Shown here: one piece after another, positions 1 to 42,347 of the stretch | Layout: the number at the start of each line of letters is the position of its first letter | Position numbering within the stretch: the stretch's first letter is position 1 | NCBI GenBank assembly: GCA_009780575.1 | Contig: WQZU01000008.1 | Location: 1 to 42,347 of the forward strand | Source of the DNA: Candidatus Methanomicula labiotermitis | Lineage (GTDB): Archaea; Thermoplasmatota; Thermoplasmata; Methanomassiliicoccales; Methanomethylophilaceae | Direction: 5' to 3' | DNA length: 42,347 bases | Notes under the pieces: model-generated | What the model was told of the DNA's origin: nothing | Database searches by the model: none | Seen by the model: only the letters and a program-made list of their open reading frames with translations | Made by a program: the position numbers and the translations under genes

Positions 1-123
1 CTTTTTATGTGATCCGCGACGATCTTATCGAAACGTCTGAACTTTGCATCGGCCATCATTCGGTCAAGTTCCGGCCTTTTCTTGTTCGCGCCCGAAACTT
101 CATCCTTGTATCGGTCGAATACT
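1..123. repeat. Inverted duplicate of 42225-42347 (123 bp, identical)
   Basis: Every base from 1 to 123 is the reverse complement of 42347 down to 42225; base 124 differs. It encodes residues from about 36 of a serine recombinase in both copies. Because the repeat reaches both ends of the window, the true length of the shared sequence is not visible. Confidence 0.95.
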
Positions 124-188
124 AGTGCCTTATGCCGTCGTTGCTTCATTATCTCGCGGGCCCACTGTGTCGGAGTGCGCGGAGTCAT
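1..188 (-). pseudogene. In-frame fusion of a small accessory protein start with a serine recombinase lacking its catalytic N-terminus (partial, runs off window)
   Basis: Read on the minus strand from ATG at 188, the first 22 residues equal those of the 141-residue protein at 41699-42124. The frame then passes directly into residue 36 onward of the serine recombinase at 42121. The missing part holds the start codon, the YARVS motif and the catalytic serine (Ser10 of the right copy). Compared with the right island, 461 bp are absent, with a 2-bp microhomology at 122-123. The ATG overlaps the stop of the upstream HTH gene (ATGA). The reading frame stays open to base 1, so the rest of the recombinase may lie outside. 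As drawn it cannot catalyse strand cleavage; it could still make a DNA-binding fragment. An assembly chimera at the junction cannot be excluded from sequence alone. Confidence 0.75.
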
Positions 189-197
189 CCGTACATC
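122..197. repeat. Inverted duplicate of 41690-41765 (76 bp, identical)
   Basis: This block is the exact reverse complement of 41690-41765. It covers the last codons and stop of the HTH gene and the first 22 codons of the following gene. Identity stops abruptly at 198, inside the 3' end of the HTH gene, whose remaining sequence is not alignable at DNA level with the right copy. Confidence 0.95.
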
Positions 198-1471
198 CCT
201 CCCTCTGCGTCGCTTCCTGCGAATGTCTCTAGAGGTTTTACCATCAAGGCCGTTGTTTTAAAGGAAGCTTTCTGAACTAAGACTGCCTCTTCTATCGTTT
301 TCCAGACATCTATCAATTCACTGATGACATAAGCCTTGATCTCTTGAATTTTCTTTTGATTTGATTCAATATTTGCGGTCATGGATAATATTTCTCTTTC
401 TGAGTCTGTGATCCTTACCTCGTGCTCGTTTATTGCGACCTTCGCTTCTTCAATGTCTGCTCTGATCTCTGCGAGCTTGTCTAGTGCTTTAAAAAATGCT
501 AGCGATTTTGATTCGAGGTGTCCGGACGGCCTGTGTGATTCGTCGAACCAGAATTTGTAGCCTTCCGACTCCATTACTTTCCTTCCGACCTCAGATTCAA
601 CCCATGCATTCAGTTCTTTATTTTTGCTGTAAAGATGATATCGTTTGATGTCATTGAGAGGTTTATCGTCGAATGTCCATCCTGCATATTTCTGTAGGAA
701 GTATAGAACCCTTCGACATTTCGCTATAATTTTCATTCCGACATCTTCGTCAGATGTTATATCGGATAGCAGAAATTCGGGATCCTCTAAAGGGTCAACA
801 TAGAAAAGGCGCTTTGGGGCTCCCTTTTTAGGATATGTTCGCTGATAGCGTATTTTGAACTTTTCTCCGTCTACAGAAAAGTGAGCTTCGAAATTGTCTT
901 GATTCTTCAGGGCCTCGCGCGATCTTGCGTTTTCTCCGAATACCGGGAATTTCAATCTTTTAATGTCTTTTTCTTTGGGAGAGTCGCCGATTTTCAAAAA
1001 TCTTACGACATGCCCTTCCTTTACTTCGACTGCCATCTCATTAGTGTATTCAATATTTCCTTCTGCTATGACCTTGAACCTTGCCTGCGTGTACGGGAAG
1101 TGCGCGCCCATTACCATGGGAACGTTGTAGAGGTGCGCCGGCGGCGATTCTACGGTTGGGGAGGGATGCACCCCTGTTGAGTCAACCTTTCTTTGCAGCC
1201 TCAAAGCATCAATGACGCTCTGATCTACCATGCCTTTAACTCGGTTTCCGTATCTTCCGGTGTCGTATAGCTTGTCTGTGCGATATCCGCTTAACGGCGA
1301 AATTATTTTGAGATTCGACAGTTTCTTTATTGTTTTTGAGACGTATTGTTTGGAAAAACCCGTTATTTCAGCCACTTGCTGTGCTGTGCGCGGTGCCTTC
1401 GTGTTTTCCGTATTGATAAGTTCGGCGAATATCCATATCTCATTATCTGTGAGTTTCGGAGGTTCAGACAT
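185..1471 (-). CDS. Winged-helix/coiled-coil accessory-island protein, function unknown
   Basis: The 428-residue protein starts with a helix-turn-helix of winged-helix type at about residues 8-60 (motif around TAQQVAEITGFSKQYVSKTI). A middle domain contains an RRVLYFLQKYAGWTF segment, and a heptad-rich coiled coil spans about 330-395. The right-island protein at 40644-41702 occupies the same position before the recombinase module and has the same order, including a GWKF segment, so the two look like distant homologues. Its ATG overlaps the stop of the preceding gene by one base, and its stop overlaps the next ATG. A regulator or a plasmid/element replication or partition protein would fit; the sequence does not decide between them. 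Confidence 0.8.
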   Translation of the reverse strand: MSEPPKLTDNEIWIFAELINTENTKAPRTAQQVAEITGFSKQYVSKTIKKLSNLKIISPLSGYRTDKLYDTGRYGNRVKGMVDQSVIDALRLQRKVDSTGVHPSPTVESPPAHLYNVPMVMGAHFPYTQARFKVIAEGNIEYTNEMAVEVKEGHVVRFLKIGDSPKEKDIKRLKFPVFGENARSREALKNQDNFEAHFSVDGEKFKIRYQRTYPKKGAPKRLFYVDPLEDPEFLLSDITSDEDVGMKIIAKCRRVLYFLQKYAGWTFDDKPLNDIKRYHLYSKNKELNAWVESEVGRKVMESEGYKFWFDESHRPSGHLESKSLAFFKALDKLAEIRADIEEAKVAINEHEVRITDSEREILSMTANIESNQKKIQEIKAYVISELIDVWKTIEEAVLVQKASFKTTALMVKPLETFAGSDAEGGMYG

Positions 1472-1659
1472 CAGACTGCCTCCTTAACTTTGCACGTATT
1501 CCACCACGGTTCAGTCAACCGCAGTCCACTTAAGTAGACTGTAGGCATTATTCCTCCTATAAAGAGAATAGTTGACTCAACCCTACCTTTTGCCTCCTCT
1601 TCATTTATATAGGGATGCGTGAAGATATGATGCGGTAATGGGTGCTTGTAGTCAACCAT
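1471..1659 (-). CDS. Small protein of unknown function (62 aa)
   Basis: The start is taken at ATG 1657-1659 because AAGGAG lies 8 nt upstream; a GTG at 1666-1668 is in frame but too close to that site. The product is rich in Pro, His and Trp with no recognisable motif. It sits between the pentapeptide-repeat gene and the HTH gene with 1-5 bp spacing, so it belongs to the same transcript. Confidence 0.55.
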   Translation of the reverse strand: MVDYKHPLPHHIFTHPYINEEEAKGRVESTILFIGGIMPTVYLSGLRLTEPWWNTCKVKEAV

Positions 1660-1664
1660 TATTA

Positions 1665-2126
1665 TCACTCCTTAGCTCGTAGACTCTTGGCGATACTCTT
1701 CTTTTCGTCGTGGTATGTGCGATGGCGCACCGATATCAGCCACTTCTTTTGATCTTCCGTCAGTCCGGGCCATCCATCAGATGCGTTGGCACAGGCGTGA
1801 GAGATAATCATTACAGTGAGTTGATCGTCTAGTGCTACATTGAGCGATTTACACCAGATTGGGATGTTGGTAAAATCTAAGTTCGCACCACTGAGGTTCG
1901 CGCGCCTGAGGTCCGCACCACTGAGGTCCGCATCACTGAGGTTCGCGCGCCTGAGGTCCGCACCACTGAGGTCCGCACCACTGAGGTCCGCATCACTGAG
2001 GTTCGCGCGCCTGAGGTCCGCACCACTGAGGTCCGCACCACTTAGGTTCGCATATGAAAGTTCGCTGAATACGCGCTCTGTGCCATCTTTGAAGGTTATT
2101 ATGTGAGTAGTTCCTTCTGATCTCAC
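1665..2126 (-). CDS. Pentapeptide-repeat protein
   Basis: This 153-residue protein carries about twelve consecutive A(D/N)LxX pentapeptides at roughly residues 24-85 ([15 protein letters not shown]), the signature of the right-handed quadrilateral beta-helix fold. A C-terminal part of about 65 residues is unrelated to the repeat. GTG start at 2124-2126 is supported by AGGAGG 7 nt upstream; the previous gene ends at the overlapping TAG. Pentapeptide proteins can mimic DNA (Qnr/MfpA type) or act as protein-interaction modules; no specific role is evident. The repeat DNA has been expanded recently (60-bp exact duplication). Confidence 0.9.
1893..2050. repeat. 15-bp coding repeats with an exact 60-bp tandem duplication
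   Basis: Units of 15 bp encode the pentapeptides. Bases 1921-1980 and 1981-2040 are identical, so four pentapeptides (20 residues) have been duplicated without a single change. Partial copies flank this block on both sides. Confidence 0.95.
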
Positions 2127-2401
2127 TACAATTCCTCCTGTGGAATGGGAAATGTATTATACGCGACCCACACGGGAAATGCTCCACTCGAACCTTCTTC
2201 AACGAATGTGTAAGATCTCACGCAATCGTAATCAGAATCTGCGATATGCCTGAATGCTAGCCAATCGCCATATACTTCTGTTATGTCGGCGCATTTGCAA
2301 TACTGCTCTTTGAGCGCGATTAAGAAATCCTCTTTTGTAGGATACTTTTTCTTCGGGGCGGCGAATGATTCTCCATCGAATTGTGTCAGATCGAATTTCA
2401 T
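2126..2401 (-). CDS. Small protein of unknown function (91 aa)
   Basis: Start chosen at ATG 2399-2401, which overlaps the stop of the upstream gene as ATGA; a GTG nine bases earlier is possible. The protein begins [11 protein letters not shown] and has an acidic, aromatic-rich C-terminal half. No known domain recognised. It is part of the same overlapping minus-strand operon. Confidence 0.6.
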
Positions 2402-2796
2402 TCCGGCCACTTCTCCTTATTGTCTTGGAGTAGTTTTTTGTCAGCACATCTTTGCAGTATTCGCTCTTCAATGTCCTTTTCCCATTGTCGCTGATGCTCT
2501 GTCTTAAGGCCTGTACTGTTACAATCTGGGCATGGGCGCTCCGCGTCTATTTCCCCTCCGCAGGATAAGCATAAGTCATCTAGCATTTTTTCGATGTGAT
2601 TGAAAATTGATAGATGGTCGATTATCGGGCAACAATAAAATGTCATGTCGCAGATCAGCGGACGTGACGGTAAGTTGACGAAATCCTTCATTTTTGGAGA
2701 GTCTTCATGCCCTAATGGATACGCGCAGAAGAAGTCAAGCTCTCCATCGTAGAATTTATGGCGACACGGAAATCCGTAAGAACAAAGCGGCCTCAT
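2398..2796 (-). CDS. Cys-rich protein with a CxxC zinc-ribbon-like C-terminal half
   Basis: The 132-residue product has CLSCGG and CPDC pairs about 15 residues apart in its C-terminal half, like a DnaJ/zinc-ribbon knuckle, plus further Cys residues (CRHK, FYCCP) in the N-terminal half. The start ATG overlaps the stop of the previous gene and follows AGGAGG. Metal binding is likely; function unknown. Confidence 0.65.
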   Translation of the reverse strand: MRPLCSYGFPCRHKFYDGELDFFCAYPLGHEDSPKMKDFVNLPSRPLICDMTFYCCPIIDHLSIFNHIEKMLDDLCLSCGGEIDAERPCPDCNSTGLKTEHQRQWEKDIEERILQRCADKKLLQDNKEKWPE

Positions 2797-3167
2797 ATAG
2801 AATCCTCCTGTTTGTAATCAACACATCTTTTATTGTGGAAAGCACGTGTTCCTGTATGTCTACAGAAGGTGTAATGCTCTGCTCTTTTGAATCTATGAAA
2901 TCGTGTCGCTATGCATAGATCTGCCATATGGACGCAGTCGAGGCATTGTACCGGTGTCATATCTGACATATATTGAATGTCATGAGCCGTGAGTTTGAAC
3001 CACGGATTATGTGTAGGGCACAAAGTCTTCGATCTGAAGGGAATGTATCTGTAATGCCATCCCTTGTTTTCGAGCTCGAATTGTGGACTTGTTTGGTGCG
3101 GAGTCTTTGTAATGACATCAGATTCGCACCTATCGCATTCGGCCTTTCTTAGGAATTTTACTTCCAT
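2793..3167 (-). CDS. Cys/His-rich protein, probable zinc-binding
   Basis: The 124-residue product has an N-terminal CDRC pair, a CPTH pair, then CLDC and several spaced Cys/His residues to the end (CIATRFH, CRHTG, CVDY). Such patterns usually bind zinc. Start ATG follows the upstream TAA as TAATG. I know no family for it; its neighbours suggest an element-encoded accessory or host-takeover protein. Confidence 0.6.
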   Translation of the reverse strand: MEVKFLRKAECDRCESDVITKTPHQTSPQFELENKGWHYRYIPFRSKTLCPTHNPWFKLTAHDIQYMSDMTPVQCLDCVHMADLCIATRFHRFKRAEHYTFCRHTGTRAFHNKRCVDYKQEDSI

Positions 3168-3421
3168 TACATCGCCTCCAGACTTTCATGAGCGGAAGAC
3201 ATTATTTCTTCCGCGACCCTTAGAGCGTCGCGCTTGGTGGATATCCAGAATCTTGACAGTATGATGTTTAGCTCGCATCCTTCGAATGAGCGGTAATAAA
3301 CGGCCGGAGGAACGGCGGTTATTGAGATGCGTTTTATCTTGATTTTATATCTTTTTGCGACTTTTTCAAAAATGTTTTTGATGCTCTGATCAGTGATTCC
3401 TTTGGATGGAACTCCTCTCAT
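3167..3421 (-). CDS. Small basic protein of unknown function (84 aa)
   Basis: ATG 3419-3421 overlaps the stop of the upstream gene as ATGA, arguing for translational coupling. The N-terminal half is lysine-rich (IFEKVAKRYKIKIKRI); no Cys cluster and no recognised domain. Confidence 0.55.
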   Translation of the reverse strand: MRGVPSKGITDQSIKNIFEKVAKRYKIKIKRISITAVPPAVYYRSFEGCELNIILSRFWISTKRDALRVAEEIMSSAHESLEAM

Positions 3422-3696
3422 GCGGAGGCCTCCAATGTCATACTGTGGACGCGATCATATGGACCATATATTCTCATAAGTTTGCCATCCTCGTAAGCGT
3501 CAAACCCAATGTCTTTATTGTGGTCTATCAGAGTGTGGCGTCTCAATCCGCCGCTCAACTCATAGTCAAGAGTCCAACCTGTAAGGTCTCCTAATAATGC
3601 GTTTCTCAGATACTCTTCAAACGGAGGAAGGTTAAGGGTGTCTCTTTCTATGACTCTGCGTCTTTGAGGCAGCGTTATTTCGTGAAGTAAATTCAT
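3418..3696 (-). CDS. Small protein of unknown function (92 aa)
   Basis: Start placed at ATG 3694-3696 because GGGGAGTGA precedes it by about 6 nt; an upstream in-frame ATG at 3729 would overlap the preceding gene by 20 bases and has no such site. Charged, with the segment LIDHNKDIGFDAYEDGKL; function unknown. Confidence 0.55.
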   Translation of the reverse strand: MNLLHEITLPQRRRVIERDTLNLPPFEEYLRNALLGDLTGWTLDYELSGGLRRHTLIDHNKDIGFDAYEDGKLMRIYGPYDRVHSMTLEASA

Positions 3697-3709
3697 GCGA
3701 TCACTCCCC

Positions 3710-3898
3710 TCAAGTTTCTTGTGTGGCATTCAGGGGTTCGGTCATTATTTCGGACATTCGCAATTGTTGAGCTTTTGTGAGATCGGAGCGAGTTTGTGTT
3801 CGTGTGATCTCTATGTTTGCGTTGCCCCAATTTACCTTCATGAGCGTACGAATTGATTGTTTGTTCAGCGTGTCCGCTATCTGTGTGTTGTTTCTCAT
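3710..3898 (-). CDS. First gene of the left-island operon, small protein (62 aa)
   Basis: This short polar protein begins MRNNTQIADTLNKQ, which may be a small helix-turn-helix-like segment, but it is too short to be sure. It is the promoter-proximal member of the long minus-strand operon and is divergent from the ribbon-helix-helix gene across the palindrome-rich region 3899-3985. Confidence 0.5.
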   Translation of the reverse strand: MRNNTQIADTLNKQSIRTLMKVNWGNANIEITRTQTRSDLTKAQQLRMSEIMTEPLNATQET

Positions 3899-3911
3899 CT
3901 GTTAGACCTTC

Positions 3912-3985
3912 TGTAAGGGCATTCCTTACAATGTAAGTATTGTCAGCGAGAATACTTAAAGGTTTGTGTAAGGGATACCCTTGCA
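3912..3985. promoter_or_regulatory. Divergent promoter with three palindromic operator-like sites
   Basis: Three inverted repeats built on the half-site TGTAAG lie between two divergent genes. The first is TGTAAGG-N5-CCTTACA at 3912-3930, the second TAAGTATT-N9-AATACTTA at 3934-3958, and the third TGTAAGGG-ATA-CCCTTGCA at 3967-3985. The first and third are both 19 bp with centres 55 bp apart. A TATA-like AATACTTAAA (3951-3960) places plus-strand transcription near the ATG at 3985, so the third palindrome would cover the start site. Autorepression by the ribbon-helix-helix protein is the natural inference. Confidence 0.75.
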
Positions 3986-4149
3986 TGGTAAACCGTAAAA
4001 GGCAATCTCTGACAGTATCTTTATCTGATGATGTAATGGCATTTTTGCAGAAGAAAGTCGAATCGCGCGAGTTTTCTTCTTTATCACACGGAGTTGAGTT
4101 GTCAGTACTCCGATACAAAGAATGGAGTGAACGGGCGCAAAATTTTTGA
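3985..4149 (+). CDS. Ribbon-helix-helix (Arc/CopG-like) transcription regulator, 54 aa
   Basis: The start is ATG 3985, chosen because a TATA-like element about 26-30 nt upstream predicts a leaderless transcript beginning here; an in-frame ATG at 3940 lies upstream of that box. The residues RQSLTVSLSDDVMAFLQKKV form the beta-strand and first helix of a ribbon-helix-helix fold, and FSSLSHGVELSVLRYKEW the second helix. It probably binds the palindromes at 3912-3985 and controls both itself and the minus-strand operon. Its 3' end overlaps a 12-bp inverted repeat. Confidence 0.75.
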   Translation: MVNRKRQSLTVSLSDDVMAFLQKKVESREFSSLSHGVELSVLRYKEWSERAQNF

Positions 4150-4184
4150 AGGTCTAACTCAAAAACATTTAATTGCGCCCGTTC
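4129..4184. terminator. Perfect 12-bp inverted repeat between convergent genes
   Basis: GAACGGGCGCAA at 4129-4140 pairs with TTGCGCCCGTTC at 4173-4184 across a 32-nt AT-rich loop. It overlaps the 3' end of the regulator gene and lies before the stop of the convergent gene at 4226. A bidirectional terminator or an mRNA-stabilising hairpin fits; an operator is less likely. Confidence 0.55.
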
Positions 4185-4225
4185 GTTGGTTTCTTTCGTA
4201 CATACATGTGCGCGTATAATAGCGT

Positions 4226-4588
4226 TCATGCCGTGGCCTCCATTTTCTCGTTGACGAGAAGAAGCGGCGCATCATCTCGGCGGTTGCGACCGCGTGATCG
4301 GTTCTGTCGCGGGCAGATGCAATTGCTTTCCAGTGCTAAATCCTCTGTAGCCTTACAAGGTTCGCACGGTTTGAGAGGGCAGTGGAGTTTGGATGTTGGA
4401 GTCCGTCTACCCTCTGAGAGTTTACTTTCGGGAACATTCAGTATTGCGCAGACTTCTTTCCATGCAGCCGCCGTTGCATGGGATTCTTTTTCAATAGCGT
4501 GATCTCTGAAAACTCTTGCCATCTTTTTAGCAGCTTTAGGGCCGTGATCTGCTGTAAGAGAATTGGCTAGATTCCTCGCATTCAGCAT
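4226..4588 (-). CDS. Island protein with conserved KKMAR...W..VC.ILNV domain and Cys-rich tail
   Basis: The first ~58 residues of this 120-residue protein match the complete 56-residue protein at 40135-40305 in the right island: shared NA at the start, KKMAR, then W-x2-VC-x-IL-x-V. The extra C-terminal part has a run of Cys (LHCPLKPCEPC, NCICP) that may bind metal and then a basic stretch. The start overlaps the upstream gene by 7 bp. Function unknown, but conservation between both islands makes it a characteristic component of this element family. Confidence 0.7.
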   Translation of the reverse strand: MLNARNLANSLTADHGPKAAKKMARVFRDHAIEKESHATAAAWKEVCAILNVPESKLSEGRRTPTSKLHCPLKPCEPCKATEDLALESNCICPRQNRSRGRNRRDDAPLLLVNEKMEATA

Positions 4589-4893
4589 AAGGATTCCTCC
4601 GACGTATCTGCGTTGGTGCTTTTTGTTTGTATTCTTCTCGTACTAACAACTTCTATTTCTTCTGACAGCACATCCAGAAGTTGATGGCCTAGCATTTTAT
4701 TTTCCAGGATAGTGGGGGCGCCTGAATGAGACATAAATGCCATCATGGTGGCTCTTGACAAGATGAATATAAGATCCGGAGTTTCAAGCCCTTCTTTATT
4801 TTCTTCAAGGAATCCATCAAGGACCTTACAGAGATTTAGATGCAGATTGTAAGATAACTCTACGCTCCTCTCTAATCGCTCTTCGAGATTCAA
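4582..4893 (-). CDS. Alpha-helical protein of unknown function (103 aa)
   Basis: TTG start at 4891-4893 is supported by GGAGGG about 7 nt upstream. The product is acidic, helical and leucine-rich (MNLEERLERSVELSYNLHLNL), with no recognised domain. It heads a two-gene operon with the gene at 4226-4588; a TATA-like CTATTAAAATC at 4969-4979 would give a leader of about 60 nt. Confidence 0.6.
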   Translation of the reverse strand: MNLEERLERSVELSYNLHLNLCKVLDGFLEENKEGLETPDLIFILSRATMMAFMSHSGAPTILENKMLGHQLLDVLSEEIEVVSTRRIQTKSTNADTSEESLC

Positions 4894-5012
4894 GCGGAAC
4901 CCTCCACATGTTTCCCGCGGTCGTGTTCCGGATTCAAAATGGCCGATTTTTTGGACATTTCGTGGCTTGATTTTAATAGTGTTGAAAAATCATCTACCCC
5001 GATGTTGGGGAG

Positions 5013-5085
5013 TGGACTGGGCGAGATTTGAACTCGCGACTTCATGCTTGCAAAGCATGCGATCTTCCAGCTGATCTACCAGCCC
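5013..5085 (-). tRNA. tRNA-Ala (anticodon TGC)
   Basis: The minus strand folds as a complete cloverleaf. The acceptor stem is GGGCTGG/CCAGTCC with discriminator A, the anticodon stem is CATGC/GCATG around loop TTTGCAA, and the T arm is GCGAG-TTCAAAT-CTCGC. A TATA box (ATATATAT, 5111-5118) lies 26-33 bases upstream of the 5' end. It separates the left island from the core chromosome. No fragment of this tRNA is repeated elsewhere in the window, so it is not shown to be an attachment site. Confidence 0.97.
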
Positions 5086-14253: not shown

Positions 14254-17200
14254 TTATTTTTCGTGTTCGTCCTCTTCTGCCCTCCTGCGATGTCCGTACA
14301 ACTTGAGGTTATGTTTTCCTCTTCTTTTCAACCACACGGCCTTGAACAGCAAAGCTAGTAACAATATTACCAGCAGACATGACAGACCTCCCTCATTGTT
14401 TTGTTTCGCAGGGAAAAGCGTTACCGATACGCCGGAATTCTGTATCGCCAATAGAATAAAGTCCCCTTCCGTTACGTCTCCCTGATCATTTTCCCATTTT
14501 ACCGTGAAATTCCCCGAGACTCTTTTCTCGATGATCGTTTCATACGGTACGCCGTCCATCGTGTACTCGCCCGACGGCCCGATGACGAACGATCCGGCAG
14601 TCTTCCAGTTGTCGAGGGTGAATTCGAATATCGTTCCTTCATCGGCCTTCACTGTTATTGCGAACGTGGAAATTCCGTCGTATTCCATTGATATGTCCGC
14701 ATCATGTACGGATGCGGTAACGCCGAATGATGGCAGGGAGCTTAAGTGAAGGTAACCGTGCACATGCACGTTTATCATGCTGACCTCTGCGCCCCACGGT
14801 ATTCCGGATATCATGTATGAGCCGCTCGGTCCCGTGACGATAACAGGCTGTACAACGCCGTTTATCTCATACTTGATCTCGGCTGCGAGCTCTGTTCCGT
14901 GTTTATTATCAAACACGGTGCCGGTGATGAAGAACATTTCCGAGTGTATCCCGAATTTTATTTCAACGCAGCCGGAGTAGTTGCCCTTGAACGTTATTGT
15001 CATCACCGCAGACGTCCCGGCGGAGATGTTGTCCGTATATGAGACCGTGTAATCTATGCCTTCCGTCAGGATCATGTTTCCGAGCATTACCACGGGAACC
15101 GGTTCTATCGGATTACCGGTGTACTCATGATTTGTTTCGACCGTGACATCGATCGATGCTGCATCAACGACCAAGGCCGTTATATTCAGGCCGGCGGGAA
15201 TGAAGTATAGAACATAATTGCCGCTGATGTCTGCCAGTGTTCCTTGGTTTATATTGTATGAACCTACGTTCTCTCCCTGCTCCCTCGCCGGCGCACCTGT
15301 TATTATGTTATCTTTATTTGCCTCATCGGCAAACTGCCATCCCATGACCGTGTATGTGAATACAGGATCGGCGGCACCATACGTTTTGGTAATATCGTCG
15401 GCGGTCACCGTCAATACTGCAGGCGTTATGGTAAAAACGGCTTCGATAAATTCTATTGTATAATTGCCGCTTGTCTCGATTAACGTTCCTTGGTTTATGC
15501 TGTATGAACCCGCGTTCTCTCCCTGTTCTCTTGCCAACGATCCGCTAAGCAAGGAGTTATTGTCTCCGTGTTCCCACCCTGTGACTTTGTATGTGAACAC
15601 CGGATCATTTGTACCGTACACCTTTGTAATATCGTCGGCGGTCACCGTCAATACTGCATGCGTTATCGTGAAAACGGATTCAACAAACCGTATTGTATAA
15701 TTACCGCTTGTATCTGTCAATGTTCCCTGGTGTATAGTATATGAACCAACGTTAATTCCTGTATCTCTCGCCAACGATCCGCTAAGCAAAGAATTATTGT
15801 CTCCGTGTTCCCATCCTGTAACTTTGTATGTGAACACCGGATCATTTGTACCGTACACCTTTGTAATATCGTCGGCAGTTATCGTCAATACTGCATGCGT
15901 TATGGTAAAAACGGATTCAACGAATCGTATCGTGTAATTGCCGCTTGTATCTGTCAATGTTCCCTGGTGTATAGTATATGAACCAACGTTAATTCCTGTA
16001 TCTCTCGCCAACGATCCGCTCAATAAGGAGTTGTCATCTCCGTGTTCCCATCCCATGACCGTGTACGTGAATACCGGATCGTTTGTACCGTAAATCTCGG
16101 TGAGGTCATCGGCAGTTACGGTCAGCGTTGCAGGCGTTATCGTCAGAACGGCTTCGATGAATTCTATCGTGTAATTGCCGCTTGTGTCGACCAATGTTCC
16201 TTGATGTATCGTATATGATCCAACGCTGATCCCTGCGTCTCTTTCCAATGAACCTGTAAGTATTGCATCTTTGTTTGCTTCATCGGCAAACTGCCAACCT
16301 GTGACCGTGTACGTGAATACCGGATCGGTAGCGCCATATACATTTGCGAGATCGTCAGCGGTTATCGTCAGTACTGCAGGCGTTATCGTGAAAGCGGATC
16401 CAAGGAATTGTATTGTGTAATTACCGCTTGTGTCGATCAGCGTTCCTTGGTTTATGCTGTACGAGTCGGCATTCTCTCCGTTTTCCCTTGTCAACGAGCC
16501 GCTCAGTATCACGTCTTTGTTTGCTTCATCGGCGAATTGCCATCCTGTGACCGTGTATGTGAGCGCGGGATCAGCATCGCCGTATGTCTTGTGACCTGGA
16601 TCGGCGGTTACCGTCAGCATTGCAGGCGTTATTGTGAAAACGGATTCAACGAATCGTATCGTGTAATTACCGCCGGATTCGAATAGAAGCTCGTATGATA
16701 TTGAATAAACTCCCGCATCCTCTCCGTTCTCTCTTATAAGGACCACAGTAAGTGTTGACGGTGCGTTTTCTTCATCCTGTCCTTTCCATCCTGTCACCGT
16801 ATACGTGAATACCGGATCGGCGGTTCCGTAGATCTTGTTTTGGTCTTTATCGACAGTCACCGTAAGAACCGCTTTGGTTATCTCGAATGTTACTGCTGCG
16901 GTTCCGTGATAATCGCCTATGAAGGTTATTGTCACTTTGGCGGTTCCGGCGTTCTTGTTGTTCTCATATTCCGCAATGTGATCCTTTCCCTGAACCAGCG
17001 GCTGCCCCGTTGATACTAAGATCACCGTTATTTCCGGTTTGATGTCTTTTCCCGTGTACACATGTGATTCCGTTACAATGATCTCAATGCCGTCGATGTC
17101 AATGAGTATCTTGAACTCTGCACCGATTATCAGATCGGAACTGCCGCTGTGCGCATAAACTCCGTTTCCGGCAGGCCATTCTATTAGTGTCCATCCTTCG

Positions 17201-20200
17201 TCCGCATGCGCTTTCAGGTATATCGTGATGCCCTTTGCGAATGTTATCGGTTCGCTGAGCGGTTCATACAGTTCGTGAACATCCGCGACCGCCCACCATA
17301 TCTCTCCGCCTCCTGTTACTTTCCCGGTAATGGTGAAATATGTATCCGGATCATTCGGATCATAGAATACTGCGCCTATCGCCTTGTCGTCATGCGCGCG
17401 GAATGTGAATACACCATCAAGCGTGATCGTTCCGATCCAATGCGAGAACACGTTACCGTCCGTTGCTACCGCTTTGAATGATACTTCCGTACCGTCTATC
17501 ACCGCAACGGGGCGGTCGAACAGTATCCATTGTCCGGTTTCGCCGTATGCGAAATATGTTTCGCCTCCTTCGTTCCCGTCATACGGCGTCAGGATCATGA
17601 CGCTGCAATCGACACCGCAGAACACCGCACCGACCTTCAGATTTTCTGATATCCGGAAAGTGTGTCTTTCACATAATGCGGCGAGTCCGGTCCAATGCAG
17701 AAAATCATAACCGTTTCCGCCTTCCGCGCTTAGCGTAACCTCTGTTCCAACCTTCAGTGTCACGGGCGCCGTGAACCGTACTTCTTCATTTCCTTCTATC
17801 GATATGAATACGCTGCCTTTCTCGGCGGTTCCCGGTGTGAGCGTGAACACCTCATCCGAACTGCCGTAGAATACAGCACCTATCGTGATGTTTCCTGTCA
17901 CGGGGAATGTGTGCGGGTTTTCGAGAGCGCCTATTCCGGTCCAATGGGAGAACGTGTTTCCTGCGGCGATTATCGTCACCGTATATCCTTCTTTGACAAC
18001 AATAGGTCTTGTAAACTCTTCATTGATTCCCATTTCCGGGATCTGTATCGTTATTTTCCCGCCGGATGCTGTTCCCGGCGTCAGTGTGTGTTCCGCCGAT
18101 GTGTGGAATGCCGCTCCGAGCGTACGGTTGGAGATGCTGACGGCCGCGGAAGCATGAATGTTTATAACAGAATTCAGATAGTAATTCTCCGCGGTTTCAT
18201 CGGTTATGTTGACAAAACCGCCGAACCAGTTTTCGAACTCCCATGAACCTATGCCGACCGCTTCAAATGATATCCGTGTGTTGACCGGTACCGTTATCGT
18301 ATTTTGCGTCAGCAGCGATGGTGTGTTCAGCGGTATCTGTTCATCATCGCTTATCATGAATACGTTCCAGTATATCCCGCCATGGTTATGCTGCGTTATC
18401 GTTATCGTATATCCGGACACCCTGTACAGTACGGCGCCTATCTTGTAGTCGCTGTCCATCACAAGTTTTTTCGGATTCTCGTTTCCTCCTATATCTCCGG
18501 TCCAATACGACAGATCATCGTCTGCGGTTATCACAAGTGCCGTTCCCGCGGGGAATTTTATCACTCCCGTCAGATCTGCGAAATTTACGCCGTCCGCTGA
18601 CCATCTTATAACGGCTTCCGCCGTTCCGTACGTGTCGTCACGGATGAGTTCGAAATATTCATTGTGATCATAGAATACGGCGCCGACCGTCTTGTCTGCG
18701 TTCATGACAACGGACGTCCGGACGATCGTGCCTTTCAGGTATCCTGTCCAGTATGAGAATCCGAAACCGCTGTTGCCCGTTGCCGTTATCGGTACAACCG
18801 TGTCTGCGAGCAGTGTTACCGGTCTGTCGAATTCCCTTTCGATCCCATCGAGCGTGATCAGTATTTTGCCGTTGTCGTGTGATCCCGGCGTAAGCGTGTG
18901 CACGCTGTCCGTATCTTTGTAGAATGCAACACCTATCGTGTGATCGCTGTCGAGATCGAACACATACGGATTCCCGATCCCTCCGATCCCCGTCCAATAT
19001 GAGAAGCTGTATCCTGCAGCGTTGAATTCGGCTCTCACGGTTATCTGCGTCCCTTCCGGAAGTCTCAGGGATTCCGTGAATTCAGATTCGCTTTCATCGC
19101 CGATCGTTATGTAAAGCGTATACAGAACATCGATGACAGGTGTCAGCGTGTACTTGTCTTTCCAGAACACCGCTCCGATGGATGTGTCCGCGGTCGGATG
19201 TATCTGTGTCTGCGCCGGCAGCCCGGCGGAGATGCCTGTCCAGCGCAGGAATTCGTGATCTTGGTCAGGTACCGCCAATATGTGTATCTCGGCGCCGATC
19301 ATGAACGTTATCTCTCCTTTGAACTGAGAGTAATCATCCGGATCGTCTCCGCCGGTGACCGACCAGTATATTATGCCGTTGTCGAAATTTCCGGGTGTCA
19401 ACGTTACAGTGACGCTTCCCGCTCCGTATGTCTGCATGACGAAGTTCTGCGTCTTGTCCGTATGTATGTAGAACAGCATCGGCATCTCTTCTTGGACGCT
19501 GTAGTTCAGGGAGATTATCATCAGGAATGAACCGGAAGCCGCTTTTATCTCATACTTTCCGTTTCTGTCGGTTATTATGTTCTTTATCTCGCCGTCATCG
19601 ATCCTGTATTCTATCTTGATGCCCGCGACCGGTTTCGAACCGTCGACCACGATACCGGACAGTTTGAACTCGGTTGTCTCATCCGGTTCCATATAGAGAT
19701 CGTTCGTTGTATCGCTTTGTATGAAAATGACCGCCGGCACCTGGTCCGCCGGCGTCAGAACATAACCGTCCCTTTCCGCGTCCGTTATTTTTATCGTCTG
19801 CCCTGCGGCCGCCGTTATCACGTAGTTGCCGTTTGCATCCGTCTTGACACTGAATATTTTCGGACTGTCGTCTATCGTGTAAAATATCGTGATATTCGGA
19901 AGACCGATCCCGTCGTGGCTGACACTGCCTGTGACGGTGAAATCGATCGTGCTTACGGGAAGCATTATGAAATTCCGCTCCTTATTGATGTTCTCCGCCA
20001 CGATGAGGGTCGGTATCTCCGTCGTCTCATCTGTTTTGAAACCTTCTTTTGTCACGCTTATTATCTCTACATGCTGTCCGGAGAATACGCCTATCACATA
20101 ATGTCCGTGATCATCTGTCAGAACGAACCCTTCTTCATTGTCTATCCTGTATGATATAAGAACTCCCGACAGAAACACCGGACCCTCTGACGATTCTGAA

Positions 20201-23200
20201 ATGATTTCTCCTGATACGAACAGCACGTTTTCCCTCGAGGACATATGCACCGTCAGCAGTTCAGTGGAATCGTCGACGTATATGAGAGGCAATATACCTA
20301 CGCGAATATATCCGTCGAACGCCGCCTCCGATATTATGACGTTGCTTCCGAACGGTATGTTCTCCAGCGTGAAATGACCGTTTCCGTCCGAGACCGTGAA
20401 ATGATAATCGAATGACAGCGGATCGTTGGGATCGGAGATTATGTAACCTATCGTCACTCCTTCCAAAGCAGTTTGGTTCAGATATTCCAATACGATCCCG
20501 TTGATATCTATCGTTATGCTCAGATTTGGATCCACGATCATTACGATATCTTGTTCCGTTGCCTCGTGTATGTATACTGACGGCAGCTGCCCTTCGTGAG
20601 TGTAGTTCTCCAGTGAAACAGATGTTATCGTTACAACAGATCCGTAAGGCGCCGGTATTGAATACTCTCCGCTTACGGGTGATGATAAGATATGATGTTC
20701 CTCGACAAGCACGCCTCCCATGTGTATGACGTAATCTATCCTGACGTCGCCGAGAGGATGTTCGTTGTGCGTGACCGTTCCGTGAAGCATCGTGCGGCTG
20801 CCGTCCGGTATCATGAAGAAATTGTTTTCGTGATCCGTCTGTATCTGCTGGAAGACGAAGTTCATCGGATGTCCGGCGCTTATGACATATCCGGCCTTGT
20901 CCAGAGAATTTATGACAATCTTTGAATAGATCGGCACGACTATTTCATATGATCCTTCGCCATCTGTCGTGACCTGCTGCTGTGTATCGTTTACCGTTAA
21001 GCTTATTACAACTCCCGGTAAAGGATGTTCTTCAATGCCGTCGTCATGCAAAACCGTTCCGGATATTGTCTTCTTTGCACCGCTTACATGCAATACTGCG
21101 TGATGGGATACCTTTAAACCGAATACCGTTGACACTACGCAGCGGTACAGATTGTCATCGAGGTCATACGTCACGCGGTATATCTTGTATGTGTCCGACA
21201 CGGCGCCCGGTATGTCGGACCACGTTTCCCCGTTGTCCGCGGATACCTGCCACTGATGAAGTATATGATCGTTCGGCGGCGCTGTGCTTGCTGAGACCCT
21301 GAACACTGCCGTATCGCCCGGATTCAGATATTCATCATATGGATGTTTGTCTATTGTAAGTGTTGCCGCTCTTGACTGCAGTATCGGAAATCCGTTGTTC
21401 TTGCTCGGATCTATCGTCCATGTTCTGTTGAAATTCCATCCGGGTATCGCGGAACTTCCGGTTCCGACAGTTCCCGTGTAATATATTGAACCGTTGTTTG
21501 CGGCAGTCTCGATCGACGGTCTCATCTGGTCCGCCGTCTTTGCAGCGGATGACATTTGATTTTGTGCTCTCGGAGGATTGTGCGCCAATGTTCCTCCGTC
21601 TATGTTGTTGATCGCCGTCGAATTGCCTCCTCCTATGAGCTGGCTGAGTACGGTTCCGTTGACCATTACCGAATCCTGCAGGTAATATGAATTCGCTATC
21701 CTTGCCGCCGATGCGCTCACGCTGCCTGCTATGCCTCCCGCAAGAGGAACGTTATTGTTTGCCGTCTGTGCCGTGACCGTACCGACGCTGTAACAGTTCC
21801 TTATGACATTGGATGTCTCGCCTGCGATGCCTCCCGCGCGTGCCGTCCTCGAGGATGATGTTCCGGACGTCATGTTCTCGCCCGTTATGTCGCCGGTGTT
21901 GTAACAGTCCGTTATCTGACCGGCGGCTTGGCCTGCTATTCCTCCCGCTCTCGCCGGATTGCTGCTCAGGCCTCCTGCCAGAACCTCACCCGTGTTGAAC
22001 GATAACGTCACGTTCGAGGATGATGACGAGCTGCCAACAATACCGCCGGCGTACGGCAGTCTTGAAACGGACGTCACATCGCCGGTGTTGTAGCAATTTG
22101 TTATCGGCCTTGTTGTAAGTCCTGTGATGCCGCCTGCGAATGTTGTGTTGCTAGCACCTGAATCGGACGTGTTTATTGCTGTTACCGATCCCGTGTTCCC
22201 GCTGTCGGATATGAGACCGTTACGTCCCGTTATGCCTCCTGCGTGTACATTCGAACTTGTCGAAGCGGCAAAAACGGATCCCGTGTTGTAACAATTCGTG
22301 ACTATCGTCGAAACAGCGGCGGAACCGACTATGCCTCCTGCGGACTGTACTGCGCGTGCCAGTGTTGTAGCCGTTACGGAACCCATGTTGAATGTGTTGA
22401 TTATCTGCGCAGCTCCTCCGTTAACGCCTATTATCCCGCCGGCGTTGCCTGCCTCGGAGTTCGTTCTTGCCGAAACGTTTGCTGTATTGTATGAATCTAT
22501 GACGCGCGTCGCTCCGGACGGTGCGTTGCCTATCATGCCGCCGACGTTCAATGCTCCTGATGTTGACGTTGCCGCCGTGATCCCGTCGAAATAGGAGTTT
22601 ATGATCTGTGTTCCGGCGGATGCGGTCCCTATCATTCCTCCTACGTTGAGAGTACGTGTGGTGGTTGCCGCCGTGACCGAACTTTCCGTTATGCCGATGT
22701 TCCGTATCTGTGCGGCCGATCCGGCCGTTGTTGCGAAAAGTCCGATGCTTGAGGAAGATGTTGTGTATACTGCTATATGCATTCCGTGAATTATATGACC
22801 GTTGCCGTCAAGTATTCCCGTGAAGTCCGCAGGCAGGGGATTCATATTACCGTTTGAGTTGAATGACCTTTCGAATGACGATTGATATCTGTCTAATGTG
22901 AACGTATATGCGAACGGAAGGTTCGTTGTCGACCCTGCTCTGTAAAAGCCTGCTACCGTCACCGTGTATATGTTTACGTCCGATTGAGGCAGATTCAGCG
23001 ACACCGTTGATGTGTTCGATGTACCTGATCGTGATGCGTGTATCGCTTCGACGCGCACATGAAGCGTATCTATCCTCCAGCTGGATCCGGATCCTCCGGG
23101 GTTGCTGACCGTTACGCTCATTGAAGTTCCGTCCGCGCTCAGCGTTCCCGTTACTATGAGTCTGTGTCCTCCGTTAAGATCAGCGTTCGGCCCGAAGAAT

Positions 23201-23448
23201 ATATTGTCGGTAAGATAATACTTACCGTTCAGGGGCCAATTGCCCGATGAGGCTCCGGTGCTGCCTATTCTCGACAGATCTTCGGGAGTTGATATCGGTA
23301 TCCACGTTCCGTCGTTGAAGTCGTCCATGAGAAAATATTTACTTTCACTGTCATCGGTATCGTATGAAAAGAAGAGTGTCGTGGAGATCAGGATCGTCGC
23401 CACTATCACCGTAAACAATTTACCGTATTTGACAGTTATATTACTCAT
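14254..23448 (-). CDS. Giant multidomain surface (adhesin-like) protein, membrane-anchored, 3064 aa
   Basis: An N-terminal signal/anchor (about residues 11-30) leads to an extracellular region. It begins with about eight GLUG-like glycine-rich repeats (~residues 245-600, NAGGIIG.. and ITNCYNTG motifs), followed by an Ig-like domain (~700-785). Six carboxypeptidase-regulatory-like/beta-sandwich repeats span ~795-1350, then nine Trp-Thr-Gly repeats ending in IGAVF (~1350-2115). Seven MBG-type repeats of about 80 residues ([12 protein letters not shown] motif, ~2185-2740) are followed by a last beta-sandwich. A C-terminal transmembrane helix ([11 protein letters not shown]) and a basic cytoplasmic tail close the protein. 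It probably extends from the cell surface for attachment to host, mucus or partner cells, as proposed for adhesin-like proteins of gut methanogens. The ligand cannot be inferred. Confidence 0.9.
15400..16760. repeat. Near-identical 237-240-bp coding repeats (MBG domains)
   Basis: The MBG-encoding units at about 15365-16080 are the most alike: the segment starting near 15601 recurs near 15838 with a 237-bp period (79 codons) and only scattered differences. More diverged copies continue to about 16760. Such repeats are prone to unequal recombination, so copy number may vary among cells or be collapsed in assembly. Confidence 0.9.
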
Positions 23449-23458
23449 TTTAACACCG

Positions 23459-23479
23459 TTGTTCTTTTAAATAGAACAA
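23459..23479. promoter_or_regulatory. Promoter of the giant surface-protein gene with a palindrome over the TATA box
   Basis: The box, TATTTAAAA on the minus strand (23465-23473), is centred about 21 bp upstream of ATG 23448, so the mRNA is likely leaderless or nearly so. It is exactly flanked by TTGTTC (23459-23464) and GAACAA (23474-23479), a perfect 6-bp inverted repeat with 9-bp spacer. A repressor binding there would block TBP. Confidence 0.5.
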
Positions 23480-23525
23480 TTTTATCCAAAAGCTAAAGAG
23501 TAAACAAATATAAAAACAATATCTG

Positions 23526-23541
23526 CTATCTTTATAGATAG
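23526..23541. promoter_or_regulatory. CTATCT-TTAT-AGATAG inverted repeat upstream of the surface-protein gene
   Basis: A perfect 6-bp palindrome with a 4-bp spacer lies 78-93 bp before the start codon, in a very AT-rich region. It may be an activator or repressor site, or a by-product of base composition. The rest of the 277-bp gap (23449-23725) holds only the downstream rps10 terminator. Confidence 0.3.
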
Positions 23542-23675
23542 TTACTATATTTATCATTAACAGCTCCGAACTGCGCAGATATCCGGTCTTTGAAAATTGA
23601 ACTGGTTCCGATCGGCGTGTATACGGATCGGGCGTTATAAAAAAAGAATCCTTGAACGTGTATGATGATGAGATA

Positions 23676-23699
23676 CTGCGCCGGCAAACGCCGGCGCAG
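23676..23699 (-). terminator. Terminator of the translation operon
   Basis: CTGCGCCGGC-AAAC-GCCGGCGCAG is a perfect GC-rich 10-bp stem with a 4-nt loop, 27 bp after the rps10 stop on the minus strand. It is followed about 30 nt later by a run of seven T on the minus strand, where archaeal RNA polymerase would release. Confidence 0.8.
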
Positions 23700-23725
23700 C
23701 CGGATATCAAAATGGTAAATCGTTT

Positions 23726-24040
23726 TTATGTGCTTCGGAGCACGATCTCAATGTTGACCCCGTCCGGAACTTGGATCCTCATGAGCTGCCTGAGGGCACG
23801 CTCATCCGCGTCCAGATCGATGAGTCTCTTGTGAATGCGCATCTCCCAGCGGTCCCATGTCTCGCTGCCTTCCCCGTCAGGGCTTTTCCTGCAGGGAACC
23901 TTTAATTTCTTCGTGGGAAGCGGTACGGGTCCGCGGATGTTGACACCAGTTCTCTGGGATATCCCTTTGATCTGGTCGCATACGCCGTCGACCTTGCGCG
24001 GGTCAGACCCGCTGAGTGAGATCCTTGCTCGCTGTGACAT
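23726..24040 (-). CDS. rps10: 30S ribosomal protein S10 (uS10)
   Basis: This 104-residue protein of the small subunit head begins [18 protein letters not shown]; an upstream in-frame TTG at 24046 is less likely. [22 protein letters not shown] and the C-terminal [12 protein letters not shown] are typical of archaeal uS10. It lies 36 bp after EF-1alpha, in the order conserved across archaea, and is last in the operon. Confidence 0.95.
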
Positions 24041-24076
24041 GTTCAACCCTTTTTAATAAATGGGAGAGAAGAGGGT

Positions 24077-25342: not shown

Positions 25343-25415
25343 TTTGATTCCTCCTATTATTTTATCATAGGTATGATTTTTTCTCCATAACTTTATTCTC
25401 TATTTAAGTTTACTC

Positions 25416-39592: not shown

Positions 39593-40105
39593 TTACCAGG
39601 ATCCCGATGACAAGAACCGGTGCATGGGAAGACGGTCGTCCGCATCCGTTCCCATTTTGAAGTTGTTCATCACTCGTTCCGGAGTTGACCATATATCCTC
39701 TCTATAAAGACTTTTATCAAAAGACCGAATGCAGCATTCCGTGAACCCGCGGGCCGATCTGTTCTGAAATCGAAGGAAACCTGTGAAAAAATAACTGTCC
39801 GGATAGATGATCTTGGTGCGGGGGGAGGATTTCCGCCGAACTTGTCCGCTTAAGCCACCAGAATACTGCCAAGGTACGGCATCGATAGCCCGTGAAAGTA
39901 ACTGCATCTGTCCTAGGTCGGACGATCTCAAGGCGGCGATCTGATGGGAAATAGATACAACCGCTCCGGTAGGACGAAAGCTTACGCGGTCCGGAGGCGC
40001 GTATGCTCTTTCTGCTTTTTCGAATGCGAGGAATTGATATTTCTTCCGACGGGAGAGGGAAAATACTACACAATGGAATGCGGGTACAATGGACCGCTTA
40101 ACCAT
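39593..40105 (-). pseudogene. Unassigned open frame, possibly a transposase remnant
   Basis: A minus-strand frame stays open for about 170 codons just beside the DUF116 gene. Its C-terminal half looks protein-like (IIYPDSYFFTGFLRFQ, IWSTPERVMNNFKMG), and the YPDS segment recalls the N-terminal part of some DDE transposases. The N-terminal half overlaps the plus-strand gene at 39944, and no catalytic DDE motif is present. It could be a decayed insertion sequence marking the right-island boundary, or a chance frame. Otherwise 39593-39943 shows no gene. Confidence 0.3.
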
Positions 40106-40138
40106 ATTCGCCGTAAGCTCAGGGAGGCGACAACATGA
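39944..40138 (+). CDS. Small basic protein with a CxxC pair (64 aa)
   Basis: The stop overlaps the next ATG as ATGA, as between the other genes of this operon, which argues for a real gene. The sequence is basic with CSFC and one further Cys; it may bind zinc. The upstream ribosome site is weak, and a TATA-like AAAATACTA near 40060-40068 could start transcription inside it, so the call is uncertain. Confidence 0.45.
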   Translation: MGNRYNRSGRTKAYAVRRRVCSFCFFECEELIFLPTGEGKYYTMECGYNGPLNHIRRKLREATT

Positions 40139-40305
40139 ACGCCGAGCATATGGTCAACATCCTGCGCGAGTATGACGATCCTAAGAAGATGGCCCGAATA
40201 ATGCATGCGTCATGTGTGCGCTTCGGAGGACCGAGTACTAAAGTCAAGATGTGGTCAGATGTCTGCACAATTCTAGGTGTAGACGTTCAGGAGGCATCCG
40301 AATGA
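40135..40305 (+). CDS. Island protein homologous to the left-island KKMAR protein (56 aa)
   Basis: The whole protein matches the N-terminal part of the gene at 4226-4588: NA near the start, PKKMARIM, and W-x2-VC-x-IL-x-V. It lacks the Cys-rich tail. GGGAGG precedes ATG 40135, and its stop overlaps the next ATG. Conserved between both islands, so probably a core component of the element family; function unknown. Confidence 0.75.
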   Translation: MNAEHMVNILREYDDPKKMARIMHASCVRFGGPSTKVKMWSDVCTILGVDVQEASE

Positions 40306-40643: not shown

Positions 40644-41702
40644 TTGGTCATACGCAGACTTACAGCAGACCAGATCAGAGTGAGGGATAACATCCTGATT
40701 CCCGACATGACGATTCCTTTAACCGCGCGTAATCTAAAGATGGACCCTCGCAGAGTGCGGACAATCGTCAGTCAGTTGGTCCATTACAGGGAGATTCGCC
40801 GCATTCCCGGCACGAAATATCCGGTACTGTACACAAGCACCCTCCCCGTACCTAAAGGTACGGAAAGCCATATTACCGTAAATTGCAGGGAGGGTGCCAA
40901 TTCAAAGCAGGGGGGAGGTTCAGAAAAAAGAGAACCAACGCAATGCAGAATCCACCTCAACGGACAGATATATTCGCAGGTTACGAAGGTCGGAACAAGG
41001 CAAGCCCTCAAAACTGAGAGAGGTATCGAAGTAGGGGATTGGAAATCGAAACCAGGCCACCCACTCGGAAGCGTAGAATACAAAGGATGGATTCGTATCG
41101 AGGATCAGCATATCGAGTTCTTCTACCGAGAGGGCAACAGAGGGAGCAAGACCTTCACCGTCAATCCCGGTCACTCATATCAGACTGCCCCCAACGCGAA
41201 AGAAAAGGGTATGGCAGCACTCATTGACCGCGCAAGATACATAATGGAACTTCTCAGGCCGCACGGATGGAAGTTCACGGAACCGGAGATAAGAGGCATT
41301 GGAGGAGAAGCAGGTATCCCGAACCATCCACTGATAGAAAGGATCAATCGGGATAATGTCAAAGAGAATGCTACGATAAAGCTCGACACATCCAAAGGCG
41401 GAAGCGAGATCGAACTGACGGATGCAGAGGCAACAGACATCGCGTGTGAATCGCCGGAACACATCGTTCAACTCTACACGAACGATTCTCTGATCGTCGA
41501 AAGACAGGACGCATCCGAGGAAGAACTGCTGCAAATGAAGAAAAAGAGCCGTTTGATTGTTGACATTCTCAAAGACAACATATACTCTGCGGAACTTATC
41601 GCCAAGAAGCAGACAATCGAATTGGAAGGTCAAGTACACACTCTCGTCGAAATGTCCGATGGCATCTCGGCCGCCGGTGCAAGGGATGTGATGTACGGAT
41701 GA
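40644..41702 (+). CDS. Winged-helix accessory-island protein, counterpart of the gene at 185-1471
   Basis: The 352-residue protein uses a TTG start (40644) after GGGGGTG. An N-terminal winged helix-turn-helix covers about residues 5-65 (LTARNLKMDPRRVRTIVSQL). The middle has RYIMELLRPHGWKF, similar in position and character to the left-island protein, and the C-terminal part is charged and helical. The last four residues and downstream DNA are identical to the left copy, while the rest is strongly diverged. Its stop overlaps the next ATG. A regulator or element replication protein is plausible. Confidence 0.8.
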   Translation: MVIRRLTADQIRVRDNILIPDMTIPLTARNLKMDPRRVRTIVSQLVHYREIRRIPGTKYPVLYTSTLPVPKGTESHITVNCREGANSKQGGGSEKREPTQCRIHLNGQIYSQVTKVGTRQALKTERGIEVGDWKSKPGHPLGSVEYKGWIRIEDQHIEFFYREGNRGSKTFTVNPGHSYQTAPNAKEKGMAALIDRARYIMELLRPHGWKFTEPEIRGIGGEAGIPNHPLIERINRDNVKENATIKLDTSKGGSEIELTDAEATDIACESPEHIVQLYTNDSLIVERQDASEEELLQMKKKSRLIVDILKDNIYSAELIAKKQTIELEGQVHTLVEMSDGISAAGARDVMYG

Positions 41703-41765
41703 CTCCGCGCACTCCGACACAGTGGGCCCGCGAGATAATGAAGCAACGACGGCATAAGGCACTAG
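41690..41765. repeat. Inverted duplicate of 122-197 (76 bp, identical)
   Basis: Exact reverse complement of the left block. Similarity begins abruptly two codons before the HTH stop and continues into the next gene to 41765, where the left copy jumps 461 bp ahead. Confidence 0.95.
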
Positions 41766-42124
41766 AGCACGTCGAGTATCTCATATCTACGCGCATAGAT
41801 CCTGATTTCTGGAAAGAAGTACGGAACATCATAATCATCACTTACGACAACATCGACGAAGATTCGCATCTGATCGAGCAGTATTATCTTGATATGATCC
41901 CGGAGCACAAACGCCGCCTCGCCCGCATCATGATTGAATCTTGGGTGCATTATTCTAATTTCGGTTACAAACAGATTTATGACCTGATAAAAAATGCTGA
42001 GAATGCCGAGCAACGCATATTTTGGAAATATGTTCGTCGCGAGCTCAGTAAGGCTATACGTCGACAAGGGGGTTACGCGGACGATCTCCGCCGTTCATTT
42101 CTAGCCATGGAGGTCTGCGCTTGA
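41699..42124 (+). CDS. Charged helical protein upstream of the serine recombinase (141 aa)
   Basis: The protein is rich in Arg, Glu and aromatic residues (FWKEVRNIII, RIFWKYVRRELSKAIRR) and has no Cys cluster. It overlaps the recombinase start (TTGA) and the HTH stop, so the three genes are translationally coupled. It may be a recombination directionality or accessory factor; that is inferred from position only. In the left island only its first 22 codons survive. Confidence 0.7.
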   Translation: MTPRTPTQWAREIMKQRRHKALEHVEYLISTRIDPDFWKEVRNIIIITYDNIDEDSHLIEQYYLDMIPEHKRRLARIMIESWVHYSNFGYKQIYDLIKNAENAEQRIFWKYVRRELSKAIRRQGGYADDLRRSFLAMEVCA

Positions 42125-42347
42125 GAGTTGCATTGTACGCCAGGGTTTCGAAGAAAGGCGACATCCAGCACAACGAAAACCAGTTGATAAAACTCGAACA
42201 GTTCGCGGAAATGCGCAAATACGAAGTATTCGACCGATACAAGGATGAAGTTTCGGGCGCGAACAAGAAAAGGCCGGAACTTGACCGAATGATGGCCGAT
42301 GCAAAGTTCAGACGTTTCGATAAGATCGTCGCGGATCACATAAAAAG
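42121..42347 (+). CDS. Serine recombinase, N-terminal catalytic part (runs off window)
   Basis: TTG start at 42121. The visible 75 residues carry the resolvase/invertase fold: RVALYARVS with catalytic Ser10, QLIKLEQFAEM, then DEVSGANKKRPELDRMM and FDKIVADHIK. This is the usual spacing in serine integrases and resolvases. No N-terminal MerR-type HTH precedes the catalytic domain, so it is not of the IS607 type. Whether it is a large integrase or a short resolvase depends on the missing C-terminus. It is the intact counterpart of the truncated left copy. Confidence 0.9.
   Translation, partial: MRVALYARVSKKGDIQHNENQLIKLEQFAEMRKYEVFDRYKDEVSGANKKRPELDRMMADAKFRRFDKIVADHIK
42225..42347. repeat. Inverted duplicate of 1-123 (123 bp, identical)
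   Basis: Exact reverse complement of window bases 1-123, within the serine recombinase gene. The identity reaches the window end, so the full shared length is unknown. Confidence 0.95.

Follow-up and report, generated by a model that had tools for sequence, protein, structure and literature searches.

The stretch of DNA analyzed here (the window, 42,347 nucleotides) is the complete contig C8 of an archaeal metagenome-assembled genome of 1.37 Mb in 64 contigs, which contains mcrA, the mark of a methanogenic archaeon, along with archaeal-type EF-2, EF-1A and S7. Its gene content points to a probable member of the Methanomassiliicoccales. About 35 kb of archaeal chromosome lie between the first parts of two proviruses, both running outward (Table 1). 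A 3064-aa ORF with tandem repeats of 237-246 bp, encoding an adhesin-like surface protein, is found at 14254-23448 on the minus strand.

Table 1. Features of the two proviruses in the window.
Feature	Position	Strand	Remarks
Left tract 2, 5'-truncated serine recombinase fragment, left provirus	1..123	-	Codons 36 to ~75; identical to 42225-42347 (123/123)
Fusion ORF	3..188	-	Codons 1-22 of the 141-aa gene, then codon 36 onward of the recombinase; no stop before the contig edge
Deletion junction	122..123	-	Dinucleotide AG common to both tracts
Left tract 1	122..197	-	Identical to 41690-41765 at the right end (76/76); from GATGTACGGATGA (end of the regulator gene) to codon 22 of the 141-aa gene
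428-aa winged-helix protein, left provirus	185..1471	-	MarR_2-like N-terminus, C-terminus GGMYG; nearest relatives in elements of G018 and G027
Rest of visible left provirus	1471..5010	-	Small genes, one of them for a pentapeptide-repeat protein
tRNA-Ala(TGC), attachment site of left provirus	5012..5085	-	Homology to same-genus genomes stops at the tRNA 3' end
Probable left attachment site of right provirus	39813..39828	+	16-bp direct repeat of the tRNA-Leu 3' end (C1:14845-14860)
Small provirus gene	40135..40305	+	Similar by eye to left-provirus ORF 4226-4588 (-)
352-aa winged-helix protein, right provirus	40644..41702	+	Homologues in G027 and G036 proviruses, just upstream of a 200-aa serine recombinase
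Intact 141-aa gene, right provirus	41699..42124	+	Start and stop overlap the neighbouring genes
Segment absent from left copy	41766..42226	+	461 bp; either end may shift by the 2-bp AG
5' part of intact small serine recombinase gene	42121..42347	+	YARVS, Ser10; runs off the contig

Both copies of the recombinase gene reach the end of the contig at about codon 75. When nearly all contig tips of the assembly were compared, 25 pairs of ends, the two of C8 included, proved identical over exactly 123 bp, and nearly all of these pairs are without similarity upstream of the 123 bp, as is the case at repeat borders. De Bruijn assemblers cannot resolve repeats of k-1 bases or more (PMC9215042), and 123 is therefore the k-1 value of the assembler. 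The identity between 1-123 and 42225-42347 is a fork in the assembly graph, with both ends of C8 entering the same unbinned repeat node, hereafter R. An invertible segment of 42 kb was ruled out: the two ends differ upstream, housekeeping genes are located inside, and the 123-bp identity is the signature of the assembler. Identical sequences found in inverted orientation at the two tips of a contig can thus reflect a k-mer overlap created by the assembler. A similar situation is encountered in contig C19 of the same genome (G000:C19), whose own two ends converge in inverted orientation over 123 bp (157 bp at 98.7%), one repeat bounding both sides.

The continuation of the recombinase was sought in the genome itself, in viral contigs and in genome contigs, by DNA pattern and at the protein level, and was not found. 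Several contigs were considered as continuations of C8 and discarded. C17 is another provirus, at tRNA-Arg (a virus-like element at about 18668-27000 of G000:C17, with a tyrosine integrase), and C40 is another element with no visible attachment (virus-like over G000:C40 1-9000, with membrane proteins, an ATPase, a zeta-toxin-like kinase and a 520-aa possible replication protein), while the matches to C35, C34 and C56 are spurious in this respect. C45 was ruled out as well, its two recombinases being a different, chromosomal pair: adjacent serine recombinase genes about 0.8 kb apart (G000:C45 4187-4972 and 3339-4184; L048), near a thermosome gene. Such a pair is also present in G001:C60, G005:C62, G008:C122, G021:C101, G023:C9, G026:C5, G035:C43, G038:C3, G045:C48, G051:C19 and G059:C21, and its recurrence in many genomes of the order suggests a conserved part of the chromosome, not the remains of a phage.

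Regarding the left provirus, homology to genomes of the same genus begins at 5009-5012, exactly at the 3' end of tRNA-Ala. A 22-bp exact copy of this 3' end is located on contig C15 (15717-15738), just after a tyrosine integrase gene (C15:14627-15622), so that the far border of the element carries the tRNA 3'-end repeat beside an integrase, as expected for a provirus integrated in a tRNA gene. Next to this copy lies a host aminotransferase gene, and in G001 the same gene adjoins tRNA-Ala. Judging from these sequences, the most likely course of the left provirus is from 5010 outward, across R, to an end on C15. The links from C8 to C15 and to C1, the contig discussed below, cross the unassembled repeat and rest on attachment-site repeats and gene content. 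Among the small genes of the left provirus, the one at 1665-2126 on the minus strand encodes a pentapeptide-repeat protein (PF00805) built from near-identical 15-bp units.

The right provirus probably sits in a tRNA-Leu gene, with a weaker link than that of the left provirus. Its candidate attachment site, although an exact repeat, is short (16 bp) and G-rich; the tRNA-Leu gene on C1 is intron-bearing and stands beside a second tyrosine integrase gene (C1:13848-14801). An empty site was not found in relatives, the DUF116 gene next to it lacking conservation across the family. A 170-aa ORF at 39593-40105 on the minus strand spans the probable attachment site and is likely not a gene. At the right end of the window, the 352-aa gene, the 141-aa gene and the recombinase gene follow one another, each overlapping the next at its stop codon. 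The recombinase begins with MRVALYARVS, which includes the catalytic-serine motif Y-x-R-V-S, and matches PF00239 (Resolvase) with E=5e-14 over profile positions 1-72. The 141-aa protein has no relatives among 147 genomes of the order or in the viral-contig collection.

The reverse complement of positions 1-197 equals 41690-41765 joined to 42225-42347 at 100% identity. The first-pass annotation had described 461 bp as missing relative to the right copy, with 2-bp microhomology, and the exact tracts, which overlap at AG, bear this out. It had also proposed that the deletion joins the two genes in frame and leaves the frame open to the edge: this is the case, codon 22 of the 141-aa gene being followed by codon 36 of the recombinase, and the translation of the fusion ORF reads MTPRTPTQWAREIMKQRRHKAL up to the junction and VFDRYKDEVSGANKKRPELDRMMADAKFRRFDKIVADHIK beyond it. 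The fusion ORF still matches PF00239 (E=5e-6, profile positions 29-72), and its start overlaps the stop codon of the upstream winged-helix gene (ATGA), an overlap that has been preserved in the left copy. As the same annotation claimed, the start, YARVS and Ser10 are missing: codons 1-35 are deleted, and with them the N-terminal Y-x-R-V-S motif and its catalytic serine. Moreover, the deletion takes away a large part of the catalytic fold in addition to Ser10. The established resolvase structure places the first strand, the first helix and the nucleophile loop among the 35 lost residues, so that catalysis by the fusion protein is excluded and folding of its catalytic domain is not expected. The right-hand deletion endpoint is centred in a small inverted repeat, AATAC-GAA-GTATT (within 42210-42240), probably by chance because the other endpoint shows none.

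The proteins of the two proviruses, as seen on C15 and C1, follow the same gene order and are 28-50% identical, whereas the recombinase stretch is 100% identical over 197 bases between the left and right ends. With viruses this divergent sharing a fully identical segment, one of them should have received it recently. The winged-helix proteins that precede the segment on either side are only remotely related (93% probability by profile comparison) and have different relatives. Those of the right protein, in G027:C15 and G036:C2, are encoded upstream of 200-aa recombinases in tRNA-Ser proviruses. The left protein has full relatives only in G018:C4 and G027:C8. In these two elements, the only ones from which the native downstream genes of its subfamily are known, the winged-helix gene precedes a different small gene and then a recombinase of 380 aa (37% identity with the R fragment over 59 residues). 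From these comparisons, it is most likely the left provirus that took the recombinase segment, either from the right provirus or from its close kin.

The identity starts at GATGTACGGATGA; this sequence codes for MYG, the conserved C-terminus, and shares bases with the start codon that follows, and GGGAGGGATGTACGGATGA is identical in L200 and L201. A crossover could plausibly have taken place in this short shared tract, and would there have left translation coupled. Several winged-helix proteins of these elements have GGMYG, GGMYQ or MYG as their C-terminus, and their stop codon overlaps the next start (185-190 and 41697-41702 in the window; L173:4635, L174:10256 and L201:8174). The peptide looks conserved: L173 and L174 differ in this tract at synonymous sites, a pattern that agrees better with conservation of the peptide than with a DNA recombination site at the winged-helix stop, and the latter idea was rejected.

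The explanation that we favor, with a probability of roughly 0.7, is that of a mosaic provirus carrying a recently acquired and now decaying gene. The left provirus would have acquired the segment that follows its winged-helix stop by recent recombination between co-resident or co-infecting proviruses, with a crossover in the short conserved tract at the stop/start overlap. A deletion of 461 bp at a 2-bp homology would then have taken out codons 1-35 of the recombinase together with the greater part of the 141-aa gene, leaving a catalytically dead and probably decaying gene that stays in frame by happenstance.

Two other origins of the left end have to be weighed. It could be an artefact of the assembly or of the library, in which sequence of the right provirus was chimerically joined to the left one. 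Both junctions are indeed located less than 200 bp from the contig tip, and the contig stops at a k-mer fork with its last overlap backed by the first 124-mer only. Such a join would nevertheless have to account for two independent junctions (at 197 and at 122-123) that share 13 bp and 2 bp, too little for a k-mer join, and that both respect frame and gene boundary; in addition, the contig is continuous, with no fork through either junction until the repeat, and nearly all other tips stop at ordinary repeat boundaries. We hence regard an artefact as unlikely. Somewhat less probable still is a mobile cassette or recombinase-catalyzed module, made of the 141-aa gene and the recombinase gene, whose insertion would have hit exactly the stop/start overlap in both regulators. 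The identity does begin exactly at the winged-helix stop codon, different recombinases follow winged-helix genes in relatives, and the encoded enzyme is itself a DNA recombinase. However, conservation of a C-terminal GGMY[G/Q] peptide, together with the overlapping start codon of the next gene, accounts for GATGTACGGATGA, which shows synonymous differences between L173 and L174, no terminal repeats were seen, and the resident position after a winged-helix gene is conserved in several proviruses.

The remaining alternative concerns the fate of the gene rather than its origin, and had been raised in the first-pass annotation: the fusion might be a functional, catalytically dead recombinase that binds the recombination sites and competes with the active enzyme of the right provirus. 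That frame and start have been kept, with the start codon overlapping the upstream stop, and that relatives possess a C-terminal helix-turn-helix (HTH) which could bind DNA, speak for such a competitor. DNA binding by the fusion would depend on this C-terminal HTH, which falls past the contig edge, and, should the C-terminal domain of the recombinase be intact, a few codons further on might still be of importance; the competitor requires that domain while lacking the 35 N-terminal residues needed for its catalytic domain to fold. The frame itself carries little weight. A homology of at least 2 bp is expected at about 20% of random junctions in this stretch, one in three deletion lengths gives an in-frame join, and the distal part is open to the edge in one frame only of three, so that the in-frame fusion needs no special cause. 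The left and right copies differ by 0 substitutions in 197 bp; the open frame is therefore inherited from the intact gene and uninformative on selection, leaving no trace of selection in favor of the competitor. Finally, no such fusion was found in any other genome searched. A dominant-negative effect, or any retained function of the leftover fusion protein, is unsupported by the sequence, and we consider a functional competitor very improbable, decay being the likelier fate. It is just as improbable that co-resident proviruses swap a regulator-recombinase module at the stop/start overlap, possibly by means of the recombinase, and that the truncated fusion of one regulates the recombinase of the other.

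Mosaic proviruses and decayed recombinases are ordinary; what is new is the particular pair of archaeal proviruses and the identical module shared by otherwise divergent viruses. The mosaic-provirus reading thus provides a case of recent exchange between two divergent proviruses within one methanogen, in a virus lineage without matches in viral-contig searches: the collection contained no relatives of either winged-helix protein or of the 785-aa surface protein, and the surface proteins of C15 and C1 matched no PHROG, nor any Pfam family named for a viral fusogen, a VP4-like fusogen being what would mark a pleolipovirus-like provirus. Such a mosaic will be useful to the specialist without being surprising, and the idea of a dead recombinase with a role of its own is only a lead.

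Among known systems, the right recombinase belongs with the small serine recombinases of the resolvase/invertase type (PF00239; gamma-delta and Tn3 resolvases, Gin invertase; PHROG 125), having likewise an N-terminal YARVS with the serine. Its full-length relatives are about 200 aa long, with a C-terminal HTH, and match structures of TP901-1 integrase, DNA-invertase and resolvase; they also possess the second active-site arginine cluster, which, like the HTH, lies beyond codon ~75 where both copies end here. Compared with these enzymes, the left copy is devoid of the start, YARVS and Ser10, and the C-terminal part of both copies is off the contig.

Regarding the elements themselves, pleolipovirus-like proviruses have been reported from Methanomassiliicoccales (PMC10919331). 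The two proviruses resemble those of G027:C15 and G036:C2, in the same family, by their winged-helix protein, serine recombinase, membrane proteins, P-loop ATPase and tyrosine integrase beside a tRNA gene, and differ from them by large secreted surface proteins (713-1128 aa) and by the extra 141-aa gene.

The resemblance extends to the mosaic prophages of bacteria, in which exchanged and decaying integrase or recombinase genes are common: here too, divergent elements reside in one genome and share a recently exchanged, identical module, one copy of which has been damaged by a deletion. Unlike in bacterial mosaic prophages, the host is an archaeon and the border of the exchange lies at an overlapping stop/start codon.
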